DNA from: a virus
IMG/VR virus record: IMGVR_UViG_3300027908_000053
Location: 1-23,010 of that record
Strand: one strand, 5' to 3'
DNA: 23,010 nt
Shown here: piece by piece, positions 500-16,149 of the stretch
Numbering within the stretch: the stretch's first letter is position 1
Layout: each line of letters starts with the position of its first letter
Notes under the pieces: generated by a model
What the model saw: the letters and a program-made list of their open reading frames with translations, nothing else
Told to the model about the DNA's origin: nothing
Database searches by the model: none
Made by a program: the position numbers and the translations under genes

Positions 500-706
500 C
501 TATCCCAAAACAGTAGTCAAATAAGCCTGTAACCGCAAGGCATCCGCACGAGACATAAAACCTCCGACAGAGGGTTGAATCTCAAGACTATTGTTCAAAA
601 CAGCAACAAACGTTAGGCCGTCCCCTGACGTCAGGGCTATGTTCATGTGATCAACCCGCTCATTGCCGCGCATTCCGATACTAAACACATTATCATCTAT
701 TGGCAT
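500..706 (-). CDS. Hypothetical protein, 68 aa
   Basis: I chose the ATG at 706 rather than an upstream ATG at 748 because GGAGG stands six bases before it and the longer form would overlap the neighbouring gene by 56 bases. The product (MPIDDNVFSIGMRG...) has alternating hydrophobic residues suggesting beta strands, with a short helix at the end (SRADALRLQAYLTTV). No family recognised. It overlaps the preceding gene by 14 bases, as is usual in this block. Confidence 0.6.
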   Translation of the reverse strand: MPIDDNVFSIGMRGNERVDHMNIALTSGDGLTFVAVLNNSLEIQPSVGGFMSRADALRLQAYLTTVLG

Positions 707-935
707 GACCAGCCTCCAGTTTAAGTTTACATGATTTCCAATAATCAAAAATGTATCTGTACTCGCAATCGCAAGGTTCTTCGTCTTGTATGTGCATCTG
801 AGTATGCACTCTAACGTGCGTGCCCCTAAAGCAATTATGACAACTATTTAAAATATAATACTTTTCTATTTTTTTTGAGTAAGGTAACTTCTCAACAATA
901 AGTCCAGTGTCGTGACAGGAATTACATGTCATCAT
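693..935 (-). CDS. Small cysteine-rich zinc-ribbon-like protein (80 aa)
   Basis: The protein begins MMTCNSCHDTG and has a second pair CHNCFRGTH near residue 33, again a CxxC-x-G pattern like a DnaJ zinc module. A further CDCEY sits near residue 55 and the C-terminus is basic and aromatic. The sequence GAGG lies about six bases before the tandem ATGs. It is one of at least seven small CxxC proteins in this window. Function unknown. Confidence 0.65.
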   Translation of the reverse strand: MMTCNSCHDTGLIVEKLPYSKKIEKYYILNSCHNCFRGTHVRVHTQMHIQDEEPCDCEYRYIFDYWKSCKLKLEAGHANR

Positions 936-4451: not shown

Positions 4452-6006
4452 AAGCACTCTTCTTAAGCCGGTCAATCCGGCTAAATGATTGCGCCAGTTC
4501 CTTGGCAGTACGAGAATCCTTTCGCTTAATAGTATTAATCACGGCGGTGTCAGGTACGGCAAACGTCAGACATAAAGCTTCAGCCTCATCAGGGGATCGG
4601 ATGCCGCGTTTCTTCATATCCTCTTTCTTTTCCAGCACTAATCGTGAGTTACTATCAAACTTATAACGCACGCCACAAAGATCTGCGTGTAAACTATCAT
4701 TATCAGGTATTTGTACAGGGAAGTCCATTAACCACTCACCCAACGTACCCCACATTTCAGCGCGTTTGTTGTAATATATCTTCTGGTTTAAGGGTGTAGA
4801 ACCTGAATTAACAGCCACAAGGATTTTGCGATCAACCAGCTCACACAATCTATCATAAACCCCAGCGCCAAGACCGCCAATATCAATACACACCTTATCA
4901 GGATTTTCCTCCACAATGATGCGATGGACTATACCTGTTACCTCCATTAAGTCCTTCTTTTTATGGGATTCTAGCTTGTAGGCGCAGCGACCGCGACGTC
5001 TAATAATTGATGTTCTATCGTCACCAAAACGTGCAGGGTCAACGCCCAATACCAAACCACCATAAGCCTCAGCCGTACACTTTCGCGCTAACATCACAAT
5101 GTTAGGCTTGATGAATGTATCCTCACCCGTTAACTGGAACGCCTCAGTTGCGTTACAGGGATATTCCTGCATGAACTCTTTAGTGCCATCAACGCCACCG
5201 ACAGACATCTCAATAATCTTAAAACGTCGCCACATTAACTGTTCAGGTGTTAGATTATAAAGTCTAACTAACTCTTCTTCTTCAATAGTCTTTGCAAAAT
5301 CAGGTGTTACCTCACGACTATACTCAGCCTGCCAATACCACGGAATAAATATCGGTATAAACTCGCTATCACCCGCCTCCGCTAGCTGCCATTGCTCATG
5401 AAAGTAATTACCAATGCCATTTGCTGTAGACTCTAAAAATATCTCAGTGCCCGCAGCGTTTGGCACCGTTTGCATAATGCCTTTTGCATGTTCAGCCGCA
5501 TTGGGCTGATAGGCTACCTCGGAGGAATGTAGGAGTTGAACGGTACTACTTCGCCCCACGGCTTTGTTTCCGGCGGTACCGAGTTTATAACCAGAATCAA
5601 GTCCATCAAAGATAAGTTCCTTGGCATTAGACGCGAGTACAGTTGGACGCACCACGAGAGGGCAATGCTCGTGATAACGTTTAGCCATATCAAAAAGGTT
5701 GTTAGTTGCCTCGTTATCGTGAGTGAGGATAAAAGCACGTACACCAAAGCGATGAGTAACCAACCAATAGAAACGGCCTTCAATATACGTAGAGCATCCC
5801 TGTTGTCTGCCCTTAAGGATAATACAGCGCACTTTAGCTATTGTTGCTCGCTGCTGCTCAACCCGCGCATGAATAAACTCCTGACATGAATTTAAAACGA
5901 ATGGTGCTATTTCGCCGTCTTTCGTGCGAATCGACAAACACTTTTTAGAATAATGCGCAAAGTCATCGCGTAATCGGCGACGTATGCGCTTTTCCGTTTC
6001 GTCCAT
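4441..6006 (-). CDS. Terminase large subunit (packaging ATPase and nuclease)
   Basis: 521 residues. The N-terminal ATPase shows a Walker A-like KGRQQGCST (residues 65-73), a Walker B-like segment LLHSSEVAY (158-166, probable catalytic E163) and the coupling motif ESTANG (192-197). The C-terminal RNase H-fold nuclease shows the expected acidic residues in GVDPARFGDD (D323), CIDIGGLGAG (D375) and SPDEAEAL (D473). In this family the protein docks on the portal, cuts concatemeric DNA and pumps it into the prohead. Both domains look complete. AAGGA stands nine bases before the ATG. The small-terminase candidate lies 0.4 kb upstream and the portal 0.7 kb downstream in the same direction. Confidence 0.93.
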   Translation of the reverse strand: MDETEKRIRRRLRDDFAHYSKKCLSIRTKDGEIAPFVLNSCQEFIHARVEQQRATIAKVRCIILKGRQQGCSTYIEGRFYWLVTHRFGVRAFILTHDNEATNNLFDMAKRYHEHCPLVVRPTVLASNAKELIFDGLDSGYKLGTAGNKAVGRSSTVQLLHSSEVAYQPNAAEHAKGIMQTVPNAAGTEIFLESTANGIGNYFHEQWQLAEAGDSEFIPIFIPWYWQAEYSREVTPDFAKTIEEEELVRLYNLTPEQLMWRRFKIIEMSVGGVDGTKEFMQEYPCNATEAFQLTGEDTFIKPNIVMLARKCTAEAYGGLVLGVDPARFGDDRTSIIRRRGRCAYKLESHKKKDLMEVTGIVHRIIVEENPDKVCIDIGGLGAGVYDRLCELVDRKILVAVNSGSTPLNQKIYYNKRAEMWGTLGEWLMDFPVQIPDNDSLHADLCGVRYKFDSNSRLVLEKKEDMKKRGIRSPDEAEALCLTFAVPDTAVINTIKRKDSRTAKELAQSFSRIDRLKKSAYGN

Positions 6007-6024: not shown

Positions 6025-6216
6025 TCATTTAAAATGGGTGGCAGCGCTATGTAACCTTTGCATTAACACCGCAGGTGTCCTATATTTTCGGCCTGTCACG
6101 GTAGCTACCTGTGTAATAGGTGCATCACTAGCTGCACTGCGCTTGCCATAACTGGCGGCTAACTTTCCAAGCGAGTCGCTTAACGAATTAAGCATGATCC
6201 TGTAGTCATTAGCCAT
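6025..6216 (-). CDS. Hypothetical protein built on a duplicated segment, 63 aa
   Basis: The ATG at 6216 begins MANDYRIMLNSLSDSLGKL, followed by a basic, low-hydrophobic tail. The first 70 bases are a diverged copy of the DNA just upstream (6217-6284), so the gene seems to have grown from, or next to, a tandem duplication. No clear ribosome site precedes the ATG; translation may re-initiate from the short frame upstream. Function unknown. It ends 18 bases before terminase begins. Confidence 0.45.
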   Translation of the reverse strand: MANDYRIMLNSLSDSLGKLAASYGKRSAASDAPITQVATVTGRKYRTPAVLMQRLHSAATHFK

Positions 6217-6220
6217 ATAA

Positions 6221-6284
6221 CTGGCGGCCTATTTTCCCCGATCTAGTCACTAGCTCGCTTAGCTCTTAAGGTATCGTCAGCCAT
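6221..6284 (-). repeat. Module copy 1 (also at 13027-13126)
   Basis: On the minus strand the module starts with an ATG (6284) reading MADDTLRAKRASD then stop at 6243, and ends with a sequence whose plus-strand form is ctggcggcctattttccc (6221-6238). That 18-base string recurs exactly at 13027-13044, and the other end of the module, gtatcgtcagccat (6271-6284), recurs with one change at 13113-13126, preceded in both places by cttaag. A weaker copy of the end (ctggcggctaactttcc) lies at 6152-6168 inside the next gene, 69 bases away, so there is also a local tandem duplication. Confidence 0.7.
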
Positions 6285-11802: not shown

Positions 11803-12064
11803 CGAGCAAAAATCCCTAGAGTTAGGCAATGCCTTATTAGCTGAGCTTAAAGAAAGTGTTTTTAAGTATATAGATTTAGCTATGGAAGGAGCCGTCGATA
11901 AACCAACTATCCTCGCGGCTGTTTCTGCCTTTTATCTCCGAACTATTGTTTTACTAAGCGATGATCTGGACATTAACAAACTAAGGCGCAAACTTACTGC
12001 AACTGCTGCGGAAGTGATGAGTCGTGTTTACAAGAAAAGGGCGCCCTTTAAGTTCGAAGCCTAG
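11789..12064 (+). CDS. Hypothetical helical protein, 91 aa
   Basis: Start at ATG 11789 (MITHDEQKSLELG...); in-frame GTGs at 11777 and 11780 are alternatives. All-helical, with the central segment ILAAVSAFYLRTIVLLSDDL and a basic C-terminal helix (KLRRKLTATAAEVMSRV). It is the last gene of the rightward operon and its end overlaps the oppositely oriented helicase-loader-like gene by 17 bases, so transcripts converge here with no obvious terminator. Confidence 0.55.
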   Translation: MITHDEQKSLELGNALLAELKESVFKYIDLAMEGAVDKPTILAAVSAFYLRTIVLLSDDLDINKLRRKLTATAAEVMSRVYKKRAPFKFEA

Positions 12065-12407
12065 CCCGAATATTTTTAATAGCAGCTTTGGCTATTTCTG
12101 GATTGCCTCTATATTCTTTTTCGGGCAGTGGCTCGATATAGGGTACAGCATAACCCTTGCAGTACTTATAGAATTCCATGACATGTGGCGGCTTTGTCCC
12201 GGGTGTGGTGCTTGCTGTCTTACACAGTTTCAGTGCCGCGCGAATTTGCGTTTCGGTGCAGCCATACAATCCGTTTTGCCATATTGTATGCGCATATTGT
12301 TTTGTTAATTTATCGGGAAATAGTTTGCTAAATCGCTCGCCGTAGAATTGCTCTAGGCAGGTAAATAATTTCGTAATCCATTCTGGTGGTATAGGCTGCG
12401 CGTCCAT
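12048..12407 (-). CDS. Replication-associated protein, helicase-loader-like
   Basis: 119 residues starting MDAQPIPPEWITKLFTCLEQFYG, with a GLYGCTETQIRAALKLCK helix and a TPGTKPPHVMEFYKYCKG segment. Small phage proteins following an initiator gene, like lambda P and related loaders, have a similar helical N-terminus and a Pro-rich 'P-P-x-x-x-E-F' segment. I offer this as a family-level resemblance, not a proven match. GAGGTGACGC precedes the ATG. The gene starts only 15 bases after the CCA end of the tRNA-like RNA, so it and the RNA are probably made as one transcript and separated by processing. Confidence 0.5.
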   Translation of the reverse strand: MDAQPIPPEWITKLFTCLEQFYGERFSKLFPDKLTKQYAHTIWQNGLYGCTETQIRAALKLCKTASTTPGTKPPHVMEFYKYCKGYAVPYIEPLPEKEYRGNPEIAKAAIKNIRARLRT

Positions 12408-12422
12408 GCGTCACCTCTTTAG

Positions 12423-12580
12423 TGGTGGCAATTGGTAGGGGTTTCACCTACGACCTCTAGGGTTAGCCCGGCCTCAACCTTCTCGGATATTGGCCTGACC
12501 TCGCTTTCGCACCATCCTAGGCTCTTCGATTATCTGTCGCCTTGAAGAGTAACAGATACCTTGGCTGAGCTTCAATTGCC
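12423..12580 (-). ncRNA. tRNA-like RNA domain with encoded CCA and expanded arms
   Basis: On the minus strand the 5' end GGCAATTG (12580-12573) pairs with CAATTGCC (12434-12427), followed by A and an encoded CCA (12425-12423). A T-arm, GTAGG-TGAAACC-CCTAC (12451-12435), stacks on the acceptor, and AGGTC before it has the usual variable-loop sequence. CTAGG (12521-12517) pairs with CCTAG (12461-12457) in the anticodon-stem position and encloses about 55 bases. GCTC and GAGC can form a D-stem, but competing with them TATCTGT/ACAGATA and CTCTTC/GAAGAG form an H-type pseudoknot (12522-12558). The domain is 158 nt, twice a normal tRNA, and the T-loop lacks the TTC signature, so it is not a conventional tRNA. 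It might be charged or only recognised by tRNA enzymes. Confidence 0.7.
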
Positions 12581-12600
12581 ATGTTCTTTTGTGAAATGGC

Positions 12601-13020
12601 GCGAGTAGTATACCTAGTCGGAAGGAATGACCAACTACCCGTAATCTCACGATTAAAGGCTACTCGCAAAATCATGCCGGAGGACTATACCATACTGTCC
12701 GGCGCAGTAGCATTTAAGGCTGGTTATGCCTTTGGTATATGGCGCATCGGGGACGGTCTTTCACTCGATAGCAGGCAAGCAGTTTAATGATAAACGTCCC
12801 CGTTGCATAACTCATGCCGGAATTATGCAGAACAGTCCGGCGGCTGTCATGGAGGCTATTAACTGCCTCTGCATTAGTGCCGCAATACATGCAACAGTGC
12901 GGCGCTGCCCTCCGAGTCTCCCAACTCGCGCATTCGTGCTGGTTTTATGCCCACTATACCAGCGAATAGTGATATGACGCAGGAGGCATATGGAGAAAAG
13001 AACATATGCTATGACGCGTT
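12601..13020 (-). ncRNA. Large pseudoknot-rich structured RNA
   Basis: No protein-like frame is convincing here, yet the minus strand pairs extensively. Found by hand: hairpin GCATATG/CATATGC (13009-12986); pseudoknot CACTAT/ATAGTG with CTGGT/ACCAG (12971-12939); CGAGT/ACTCG; GCCGCA/TGCGGC whose loop TGCAT pairs with ATGCA (12903-12870); GAGGC/GCCTC; GCCGGA/TCCGGC whose loop TGCATAA pairs with TTATGCA (12841-12804); CGGGGACG/CGTCCCCG (12802-12748); a second GCCGGA/TCCGGC (12703-12676) whose loop TGGTATA pairs with TATACCA at 12739-12733; and GCGAGTAG/CTACTCGC (12667-12601), closing a junction with AATC-GTGA-GATT and TAGTTGG/CCGACTA arms. The GNRA-type loops fit the minus strand only. The 5' end is not defined. 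It continues into the tRNA-like domain. Confidence 0.75.
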
Positions 13021-13026
13021 GGCATT

Positions 13027-13126
13027 CTGGCGGCCTATTTTCCCGACTGCCTCATTTCATCTGCACATCACTACAATGCAGTCTCGACATCAATAAGCGT
13101 GACCTTAAGTCAGTATCGTCGGCCAT
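13027..13126 (-). repeat. Module copy 2 (also at 6221-6284)
   Basis: The plus-strand strings ctggcggcctattttccc (13027-13044) and gtatcgtcggccat (13113-13126) bracket this copy. The first matches 6221-6238 exactly and the second differs by one base from 6271-6284. The middle is longer here (100 versus 64 bases) and different. In both places the module starts at an ATG that follows closely on the end of a minus-strand gene. Confidence 0.7.
13052..13126 (-). CDS. Micro-ORF overlapping the upstream stop (24 aa)
   Basis: The ATG at 13126 overlaps the TAA of the 100-aa gene (TAATG) and reads MADDTDLRSRLLMSRLHC... to TGA at 13052-13054. The 13-aa frame in the other module copy begins MADDTLR, so the start of the peptide is conserved while its end is not. 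Translation by re-initiation is possible. It may equally be a remnant of a lost gene. Confidence 0.3.
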   Translation of the reverse strand: MADDTDLRSRLLMSRLHCSDVQMK

Positions 13127-13428
13127 TAATCGTCATTATCATTACTATGATCGGTATTGATATAAATTGCTATCAATCGATCAAGTCCCATACTCGATAA
13201 AATTCCGCGTTTGTGTTTCACAATAGATTCTATGATTTTTATAGCATCTCTAGCGTCATTTGTCTTTAGCTTTTTTAACTTTCTGATAATAACTTTTAGT
13301 TCAGTTATTGTCATATTTTTAAGCTGTTCAATTGATGCGCCGATGCTATTTAGCACGGAGTCATCTTTGCCATTAGCTTGATCACGGGCTGCCTGATGAA
13401 TGGGTTTTAGGCTTTGTCGATCTTCCAT
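13126..13428 (-). CDS. Hypothetical protein downstream of RepA-like gene, 100 aa
   Basis: ATG 13428 is preceded by AGGAG at about ten bases; an ATG at 13470 would add 14 residues without a ribosome site. The protein is mostly helical and basic in the middle (LKVIIRKLKKLKTNDARDAIKIIE) with an acidic tail (DHSNDNDD). No family recognised. Position between the possible origin and the structured RNA suggests a role in replication or its control, an inference only. Confidence 0.6.
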   Translation of the reverse strand: MEDRQSLKPIHQAARDQANGKDDSVLNSIGASIEQLKNMTITELKVIIRKLKKLKTNDARDAIKIIESIVKHKRGILSSMGLDRLIAIYINTDHSNDNDD

Positions 13429-13470
13429 AAATAAAAAACTCCTGAAAGTGTCTGTACTATAACCATCCAA

Positions 13471-14877: not shown

Positions 14878-15174
14878 TTATTTATGCTTCTTTGTTTCAC
14901 TTGGGAAAAGTTCGGCTATAATCTTTTCAAATTGTTCTTTTTTTCGCTTTGTTAGCTCTAGATAATCGATAGCCTGCAGCAAATCATCAAAATCTATCGG
15001 GTATTGCGAGGCGCAAGACTGAATATTTTCCTCATGCTCTGCGATAGCGCCGTCGAGCTTTGCCATTTCAAGTTCCGCTTTCTTTAGCATCTCGTGCGCG
15101 CGGATAGGTGCCATTACTTCTTTTAGTTTATCTTTTGCCATGCCTAACAATTCGCTGTATTTCATTAAAGCCAT
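14878..15174 (-). CDS. Coiled-coil protein, 98 aa
   Basis: GAGG precedes the ATG by six bases. Almost the whole protein is predicted helical, with a long heptad pattern through KAELEMAKLDGAIAEHEENI and a second helix (DYLELTKRKKEQFEKIIAEL) after a short YPIDFDD linker. No catalytic motif or named family. It is the last gene of the leftward early run, before the repA leader. Confidence 0.6.
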   Translation of the reverse strand: MALMKYSELLGMAKDKLKEVMAPIRAHEMLKKAELEMAKLDGAIAEHEENIQSCASQYPIDFDDLLQAIDYLELTKRKKEQFEKIIAELFPSETKKHK

Positions 15175-15606: not shown

Positions 15607-16149
15607 CTATTGAGAATGGCTAGAATCGTACTTATATGACAGCGATTGCCGATTGAGCCAGTTGTGTTTGTATTCATTTGCGACATTGGAATCAGATATG
15701 ATTATGATGTTTTCAGAGTTGTGTAGTTGTGCGGCATTAGTGAAATTGAAACTCCCTGTAAGCGTCACAGTATCGTCAATTAGTATGACTTTGCTATGGG
15801 CTATTGCTACTTTATCGTCAATCCAAATGGGGATTTCGGCAGCATGTAAAAGTGCTAAGCATGAATTAGGATCACTGATTTGTGATTTATCGATGATGAC
15901 ACTGACTGAGACATTATGCTGGTAGGCTGTAATGAGCGCGTCTGCGATAGGTTTTGATGTAAAGTTATAGGCCTGTACGAGAATAGATTCTTTAGCGTTC
16001 CCAATCTCGGTAATAATATTTTGCGTGCAATTGCCCGTGGGCGTGAAGCAGGTGGAAAAAAAGCTTTTAGGGGCAAACTCGGTTGCGTATGAGTCGGTTG
16101 CATACGACATTAATATAAGCAGATAGAGTAAAGCCTTTAGGGTTTGCAT
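15607..16149 (-). CDS. Secreted phospholipase D-family nuclease (Nuc type)
   Basis: 180 residues with an N-terminal signal peptide (about 1-22, hydrophobic ALLYLLILM then SYA-TEF) and one HKD motif: H118 S K120, then D125 and downstream GSFNF, the HxK(x)4D(x)6GSxN signature. A single HKD per chain and this length match the Nuc endonuclease of plasmid pKM101, which works as a dimer. Members hydrolyse nucleic acids via a phospho-His intermediate, usually in the periplasm. With a signal peptide the enzyme should leave the cytoplasm, which suits degrading incoming or released DNA; that role is inference. It is encoded among small early genes. Confidence 0.85.
   Translation of the reverse strand: MQTLKALLYLLILMSYATDSYATEFAPKSFFSTCFTPTGNCTQNIITEIGNAKESILVQAYNFTSKPIADALITAYQHNVSVSVIIDKSQISDPNSCLALLHAAEIPIWIDDKVAIAHSKVILIDDTVTLTGSFNFTNAAQLHNSENIIIISDSNVANEYKHNWLNRQSLSYKYDSSHSQ

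Follow-up and report, generated by a model that had tools for sequence, protein, structure and literature searches.

Bacteriophage T4 encodes two stable RNAs, RNAC and RNAD, which come from its tRNA region and whose roles are unknown (PMC3014915). Both show late expression (PMC9697503). RNAC (species 1, 139 nt) and RNAD (species 2, 119 nt), small phage RNAs beside tRNA genes (PMC3014915, PMC9697503), are similar in length to unit T, the best-supported RNA of the present study. They are the nearest described kind, with no detectable homology to T.

Here we describe a gene-free gap in an IMG/VR virus record of 23,010 bases, the whole of which was analysed and is called the window below. The terminase of this virus shares about 50% identity with its counterparts in Pseudoalteromonas virus H6/1 and Vibrio phage 1.182.O. 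The gap (12408-13125; 718 bases) lies between a P-like gene and a gene of no known family, and its GC content of 0.50 is the highest among the larger gene-free gaps of the window. Elsewhere in the window, the minus strand of 15607-16149 encodes a protein with a PLD-like nuclease domain (Pfam PLDc_2). We hold it to be reasonably probable that the minus strand from 13124 to 12423 carries a co-oriented array of the units A, F, D and T together with a middle block, and that this array is matured by tRNA enzymes (Table 1).

Table 1. Positions of the RNA units, the regions between them and the flanking genes in the window.
Feature	Length	Position	Strand	Basis or description
Downstream flanking gene		12048..12407	(-)	P-like helicase loader relative; phrog_1524 E=1e-7, phrog_109 E=0.006
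Unit T, enlarged tRNA-like RNA	158 nt	12423..12580	(-)	12-sequence covariation; jackknife covariance model
Unit D	71 nt	12597..12667	(-)	Predicted; fold and end geometry
Linker between F and D		12668..12739	(-)	Putative; fourth hairpin GCCGGACAGT...CCGGC, from sequence reading
Unit F	67 nt	12740..12806	(-)	Predicted; end geometry
Middle block		12807..13027	(-)	Candidate structure, not significant alone; three hairpins GCTGG/CCAGC, GCCGC/GCGGC, GCCGG/CCGGC
Unit A copy 1	97 nt	13028..13124	(-)	21-member family; model match 45.8 bits, copy in training set
Upstream flanking gene		13126..13470	(-)	No known family
Candidate unit E	62 nt	6153..6214	(-)	7-bp GGCTAAT/GTTAGCC, GCCA; immediately follows A copy 2
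Unit A copy 2	61 nt	6222..6282	(-)	Model match 42.7 bits, copy in training set

An earlier reading of the window, made from its letters alone (the sequence-only reading), had taken this stretch to be gene-free and to encode on its minus strand a large, pseudoknot-rich RNA, possibly a GOLLD or ROOL relative or a new class. A conserved protein frame was looked for and is absent from 12408-13125. For the two plus-strand open reading frames inside the gap, neither PHROG (best E=0.28) nor Pfam gave support, and 2.6 Mb of fetched loci contained no relative. Searched against the 4227 families of Rfam, the window gave no match at E<=1, with no sign of GOLLD, ROOL, tmRNA, RNase P or HEARO; the proposed kinship was therefore not borne out, while the alternative of an undescribed kind was. 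The best local covariance-model matches were GP_knot1 (17 bits, E=1.2) and PyrR205 (E=7.4), both far under the cut-off. ARAGORN found 0 tRNA and 0 tmRNA genes in the window. The group I covariance model found no match there, and the same library detects one in L127. A tmRNA reading was rejected, as neither Rfam nor ARAGORN gave a match.

Single-sequence evidence is weak, and a structural argument from one sequence alone would not stand. The global folding z-score was -1.6 for the minus strand and -1.5 for the plus strand (20 shuffles each), and the H-type pseudoknots summed over the region were about 1.7 SD better than shuffles, so that pseudoknot-richness as such was not confirmed. Among the proposed hairpin-plus-loop interactions, the four hairpins with GCYGS stems are present, but the number of such interactions in the middle block was reached by 79 of 1000 shuffles.

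Similarity searches with the region itself gave little. With the entire region as query, blastn returned nothing but chance matches from phages, plasmids and E. coli genomes, and blastn of T, A and a whole array against 50,697 phage records, limited by its sensitivity, gave no significant match. No relative was reached through the genes neighbouring the gap. Relatives of the terminase provided 80 loci, yet the RNA had no blastn or nhmmer match there. The pattern GCCGGACNGT..CCGGCATGA matched viral contigs 34 times, many of them clearly coding, and no real relative was identified. Scanned for the exact pattern of the T core, with sensitivity again a limit, contigs from the genomes of 84,980 bacterial and archaeal species gave 33 matches; all of them lacked the remaining T element, and none was a real copy.

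The first homologue of T, in L125, was spotted in GC-rich gaps of terminase-relative contigs. This stretch resembles 12580-12423 of the window, and its stems differ in sequence with complementarity kept. Pattern scans of viral contigs provided further copies (L142, L145, L146, L147, L152 and L188-L194; L147 and L125 are the same contig). In a full-length MAFFT alignment of 12 sequences with a 36-pair structure (A1), 94.2% of cells were paired, as opposed to 34-41% with partners slid. Twenty-two pairs had changed on both sides, and 81 double-change cells were observed, against 23.9 expected from shuffles; for every measure, none of 500 shuffles reached the observed value. Because the structure was derived from the same 12 sequences, there is some circularity in the slid control, but none in the jackknife. 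A covariance model built from the 11 other sequences matched the window at 12580-12423 with 90.0 bits (E=7.6e-26), its sole match in the window. Each of 12 other phage records carries one strong T, and G034 has a weak second match of 12 bits. T was not found in the terminase relatives G001, G003 and G013.

In the window, the acceptor of T is formed by GGCAATTG (12580-12573) and CAATTGCC (12434-12427), followed by ACCA (12426-12423). The D-stem is GCUC/GAGC, the stem at the anticodon-stem position is CUAGG/CCUAG and encloses a three-way junction, and the T-arm is GTAGG-TGAAACC-CCTAC (12451-12435). Across the family, an 8-bp acceptor with an inner G-C or G.A pair is followed by a two-nucleotide linker, the D-stem GCUC/GAGY and an internal loop, (A-rich)/GAA. 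The D-loop is replaced by a long variable hairpin with GA/UC pairs, a bulged A, a covarying helix and a variable loop. The 5-bp stem at the anticodon-stem position is CUCUG/CAGAG (CUAGG/CCUAG in the window), and a conserved three-way junction stands in place of the anticodon loop in all 12 sequences. Its strands are AUUGU, GAR and UAAC, and it carries a short hairpin, whose tetraloop is often GAAA, GCAA or UUCG, and a second variable hairpin. A variable loop AGGUU and a 5-bp T-arm with the loop UGNAANN complete the fold; in this loop, the U54-A58 pair can persist and position 55 is G, not U.

The CCA-ended tRNA-like domain of the sequence-only reading thus corresponds to unit T. A pseudoknot can be drawn within T (TATCTGT/ACAGATA and CTCTTC/GAAGAG). 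Its first stem is kept through covariation; the homologues do not show its second stem, which competes with the conserved D-stem. With filters off, the T model also matches tRNAs of T4, namely tRNA-Thr (18.5 bits, E=2e-5) and tRNA-Pro (17.4 bits), in support of the descent of T from tRNA. These data support the view that T is a tRNA-derived RNA that keeps the acceptor, the D-stem and the T-arm. Since T has no anticodon loop, it should not decode. The acceptor is free to vary in sequence and is followed by A, T or G, so no fixed aminoacylation identity (a single synthetase) is kept. CCA is encoded after T in the window, in L145, L190 and L194 and in the L193 record; several other copies have ACCT, ACCC, GCGG or AAAG instead, and in these CCA would need to be added.

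Unit A occurs twice in the window. Copy 1 reads GGCC-GACGATA-CTGACT...AGTCGG-GAAAATA-GGCC-GCCA; copy 2 is located upstream of the terminase gene and is preceded by the leader AGTTTAT. The viral scan and earlier loci together provided 21 distinct members, 61-97 nt in total length, with the consensus GGCY-GAMGAUA-CY(helix)RG-GAAAAUA-RGCC-RCCA. They share a near-invariant 7x7 internal loop and a covarying inner helix. In the trimmed alignment, 91.1% of cells were paired and 20 double-change cells were found against 9.7 expected; neither value was reached in 500 shuffles. The number of pairs with a double change was unexceptional (277 of 500 shuffles), with only eight pairs tested. The model (R3) was built on excised sequences, so a large insertion lowers the scores. 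GTTTAT directly precedes 9 of the 24 listed A copies, and close variants precede most of the others. Compensatory change in homologues, the test that the sequence-only reading had proposed, is therefore seen in T and, on fewer pairs, in A. Judging from covariation, T and A are almost certainly structured RNA families, and the minus-strand, non-coding phage RNA that had been anticipated is present as RNA of an undescribed kind.

The remaining parts of the gap contain further candidate units. Unit D is predicted to consist of an 8-bp acceptor-like stem, GCGAGTAG/CTACTCGC, two hairpins, one of them with a GUGA tetraloop, and a GCCA end; it agrees with the three-way junction drawn earlier at 12667-12601. 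The 8-bp helix drawn at 12802-12748, CGGGGACG/CGTCCCCG, also exists and lies within unit F, whose predicted stem is GCA-A-CGGGGACG/CGTCCCCG-A-TGC with one A.A mismatch, a GCCA end and the leader GAGTTAT. No homologue was found for D, F or the pseudoknot-rich middle block. When units closed by at least 8 of 9 Watson-Crick pairs and ending in NCCA were counted, this region contained three with 8-bp stems; the shuffle mean was 0.15, and one shuffle in 2000 reached three. In the remaining 22 kb of the window (both strands) there are 12 such matches, about the chance rate. The loops of the middle-block hairpins can pair nearby, and the loop of the linker hairpin, GGTATA, can pair with an upstream TATACC. 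The reuse of a GCCGG/GCCGC stem claimed earlier stands insofar as four GCYGS...SCRGCA hairpins occur across the middle block and linker and none elsewhere in the window, but this pattern was chosen after the sequence had been viewed. One similar hairpin is located in the L213 array at +424. Candidate unit E overlaps the start of a 63-codon open reading frame (6025-6216) without detectable relatives, and may be a coincidence given this overlap.

T and A were detected by these searches solely in uncultured phages. The portal proteins of T-carriers, where found, range from 71% (G002) down to about 23-26% identity to that of the window. T adjoins the O/P replication genes in the window and G030, is near a relative of the gene 14878-15174 in G028, G029 and G033, and lies elsewhere in G031. 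T without A and A without T both occur, and in other phages both are positioned away from replication genes. With the proteins of the window as queries, no gene was found to accompany T in all its carriers. The structures of T and A, their tRNA-like ends and this distribution are computational observations.

In several other phages (L225, L135, L223, L229, L230 and L243), different RNAs follow one another in series as NCCA, a short leader such as GTTTAT, and G; the junction CCA-GTTTAT-G joins tandem units in L225, L135, L223 and L229. Most of the tandem units have closing stems of 7-9 bp. Of 85 stems of at least 7 bp that start with G directly after TTTAT in the T-carrying records, the window and two relatives, 14 are followed by NCCA, against 25 of 1249 for 18 control leaders. 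Against maturation of the array by tRNA enzymes, the leaders of T (AACAT) and D (TTTT) in the window depart from TTTAT, and the acceptors of L142 and L189 begin with T, not G. Rfam detected only ordinary tRNAs at those array loci to which it was applied, bar two elements of L127, a terminase relative of the window phage: a group I intron at L127:8064-8271 (+) and an abiF RNA at L127:5307-5343 (-).

Candidate unit families that recur by eye include C, U3 (L135, L222), U4 (L225, L135), U5 (L229, L234) and U7 (L225, L230, L243). Family C (L135:12954-13104, L213:~241-385, L218:~2225-2370, L223:~4940-5110 and L234:398-614, all +) has an acceptor, a D-arm-like GCGGCG...GACARTGA..CGC, a large insert and a T-arm with the loop TGCAATT, in which, as in T, U55 is replaced by G. 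Units of about 70 nt at L135:13112-13180 (+) and L222:1532-1602 (-) have ACGTGCAAGACG..CGCTTGCAGGG..AGCCG in common; their closing stems differ and their ends are GCCA. L225:2463-2580 (+), L230:3592-3479 (-) and L243:3398-3288 (-) have in common (G)CTCTCGA...GCGCGAWAGTWTG and an AGAG(T/C)C-NCCA end. The sequence GGGGWGAGAAGGGRTAAWGACCCTAGTAGT...GTAAGCGTACGATGAAATG is common to L229 (-), directly after the A unit ending at 868, and L234:259-351 (+). An array unit with a hammerhead-like core, CTGATGA-GAGA..TCTC-GAAA, is present at L239:~5305-5140 (-) and in L230 upstream of 3746 (-). The L239 unit allows stems I and III to be drawn, together with a dinucleotide UC that resembles a cleavage site; Rfam gave no match at E<=1. 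At L213:~634-736 (+), a unit GGTAATAAG...CTTATTACCA has a T-arm-like hairpin that precedes a D-arm-like one, the order of a circularly permuted tRNA, and ARAGORN calls part of it tRNA-Leu. The full-text literature that was searched contained no description of such arrays or of a repertoire of such families.

Among the features recognized by bacterial RNase P are U at -1 and G at +1, a paired acceptor-like stem and an RCCA end, so host tRNA maturation is the simplest route to separate RNAs. Host RNase P would cut the 5' ends from a longer transcript, typically between a leader with UUUAU at its end and the initial G of the RNA, and the NCCA end would be trimmed or completed by CCA addition. We are fairly confident that the units are matured separately as tRNA-like RNAs; their transcription, processing and stability are inferred. 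With the anticodon loop and the usual D-loop/T-loop contacts lost, T would be non-decoding. The products are probably stable RNAs that could occupy proteins recognizing the tRNA acceptor/T-arm or CCA ends. As the T-arm/acceptor shape is kept together with special cores, we favor host proteins that recognize tRNA ends as the targets, and, as the function we prefer, tentatively suggest that the units act as decoys or mimics of tRNA that would blunt host tRNA-targeting enzymes during infection; a shield against tRNA-cutting defence would be the most plausible gain. Defences that cleave tRNA are documented: Cas12a3 removes CCA tails from a variety of tRNAs and is also active on synthetic mimics of the acceptor stem (PMC12851939), and PARIS AriB (PMC12409363), retron effectors (PMC11555353) and Septu (PMC13096335) act on tRNAs.

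Binding of the conserved cores by a phage protein is about as likely as the decoy role. Regulatory or structural RNAs of this kind would serve packaging, replication or translation control, with the tRNA-like ends for maturation and stability only, and we regard this as a genuine possibility, though less likely than not. The conserved elements are internal (the A loop GACGAUA/GAAAAUA; the T strands AUUGU, GAR and UAAC), as expected of a specific binding site, and the array adjoins replication genes in the window and G030; on the other hand, the genomic position differs between phages and the T-carriers share no companion gene among those searched with the window's proteins. The single ornate GOLLD/ROOL-like RNA, of which the tRNA-like domain would be the 3' end and the units the domains, is unlikely. 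It would account for co-oriented, GC-rich units contiguous over about 700 nt and for four similar hairpins in the middle part. However, A and T occur singly or otherwise combined in other phages, each unit has its own closing stem and NCCA end, and no giant RNA in Rfam matched.

T could also be read as an intron-bearing tRNA, in which removal of the insert would leave an anticodon loop, for example AU-CUA-AC (amber) or AU-GUA-AC (Tyr). All 12 sequences retain U at position 33, and the 3' side, (C/G)UA and then AC (10) or UC (2), resembles a CUA or GUA anticodon. We consider this very unlikely, since there is no group I match, the insert holds the strongest conservation, and the D-loop without the usual GG and the G at 55 in the T-loop would give a joined product without standard tRNA contacts. 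A DNA-level feature misread as RNA, for example a replication origin with repeats, would suit the place between replication genes and the repeated GCCGG hairpins, but scarcely deserves credence: covariation of the acceptor and T-stem including G-U pairs, the T-arm spacing and the CCA ends are features of RNA, and T and A lie away from replication genes in other phages. The covariation thus largely refutes this explanation for T and A.

Our preferred reading, the array of separately matured tRNA-like units, adds T and A as two new covariation-supported families absent from Rfam. It may extend further: uncultured phages could possess a modular repertoire of at least seven recurring, unrelated RNA families that share only tRNA-style ends and are arrayed like tRNA genes, from which host tRNA maturation would yield non-decoding RNAs acting on host tRNA-binding proteins. 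We find this proposal plausible but still short of probable. If the RNAs act on host proteins that recognize tRNA, they would be a nucleic-acid counterpart of anti-defence proteins, which is timely given the many bacterial defences now being discovered that cut tRNA. A recurring set with conserved cores also makes the question of the role of RNAC and RNAD testable.

This study also allows a comparison with known RNAs. GOLLD and ROOL are, like the present locus, large non-coding RNA regions of phages, sometimes near tRNAs; in contrast, the present units are 60-250 nt, do not form one RNA and have no covariance-model match. In tmRNA, as in T, tRNA-like ends surround large helix-bearing inserts, whereas T keeps the D-stem, has its inserts in the anticodon arm and D-arm, and has no identified tag frame. 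T shares with tRNA an acceptor, the positions of the D-stem and anticodon stem, a variable loop (AGGUU) and a T-arm of 5 bp with a 7-nt loop, all in the order and spacing of tRNA; the 8-bp acceptor and the 5-bp T-stem of T covary. It lacks the 7-nt anticodon loop, its D-loop is a long hairpin without GG, its T-loop is UGNAANN as opposed to UUCRANY, and neither ARAGORN nor Rfam recognizes it as a tRNA. Like RNAC and RNAD, T is a phage-encoded small RNA with tRNA-like features. When the T model was run unfiltered on the T4 cluster, it matched tRNAs, and neither RNAC nor RNAD rose above noise. Both RNAC and T end in a T-arm, which in RNAC is of the tRNA style (CCGGG-TTCGAAT-CCCGG); the loop is canonical in RNAC, but not in T. 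In T4, two such RNAs accompany eight tRNAs, whereas several recurring families are present in the phages described here, often with few or no tRNAs.
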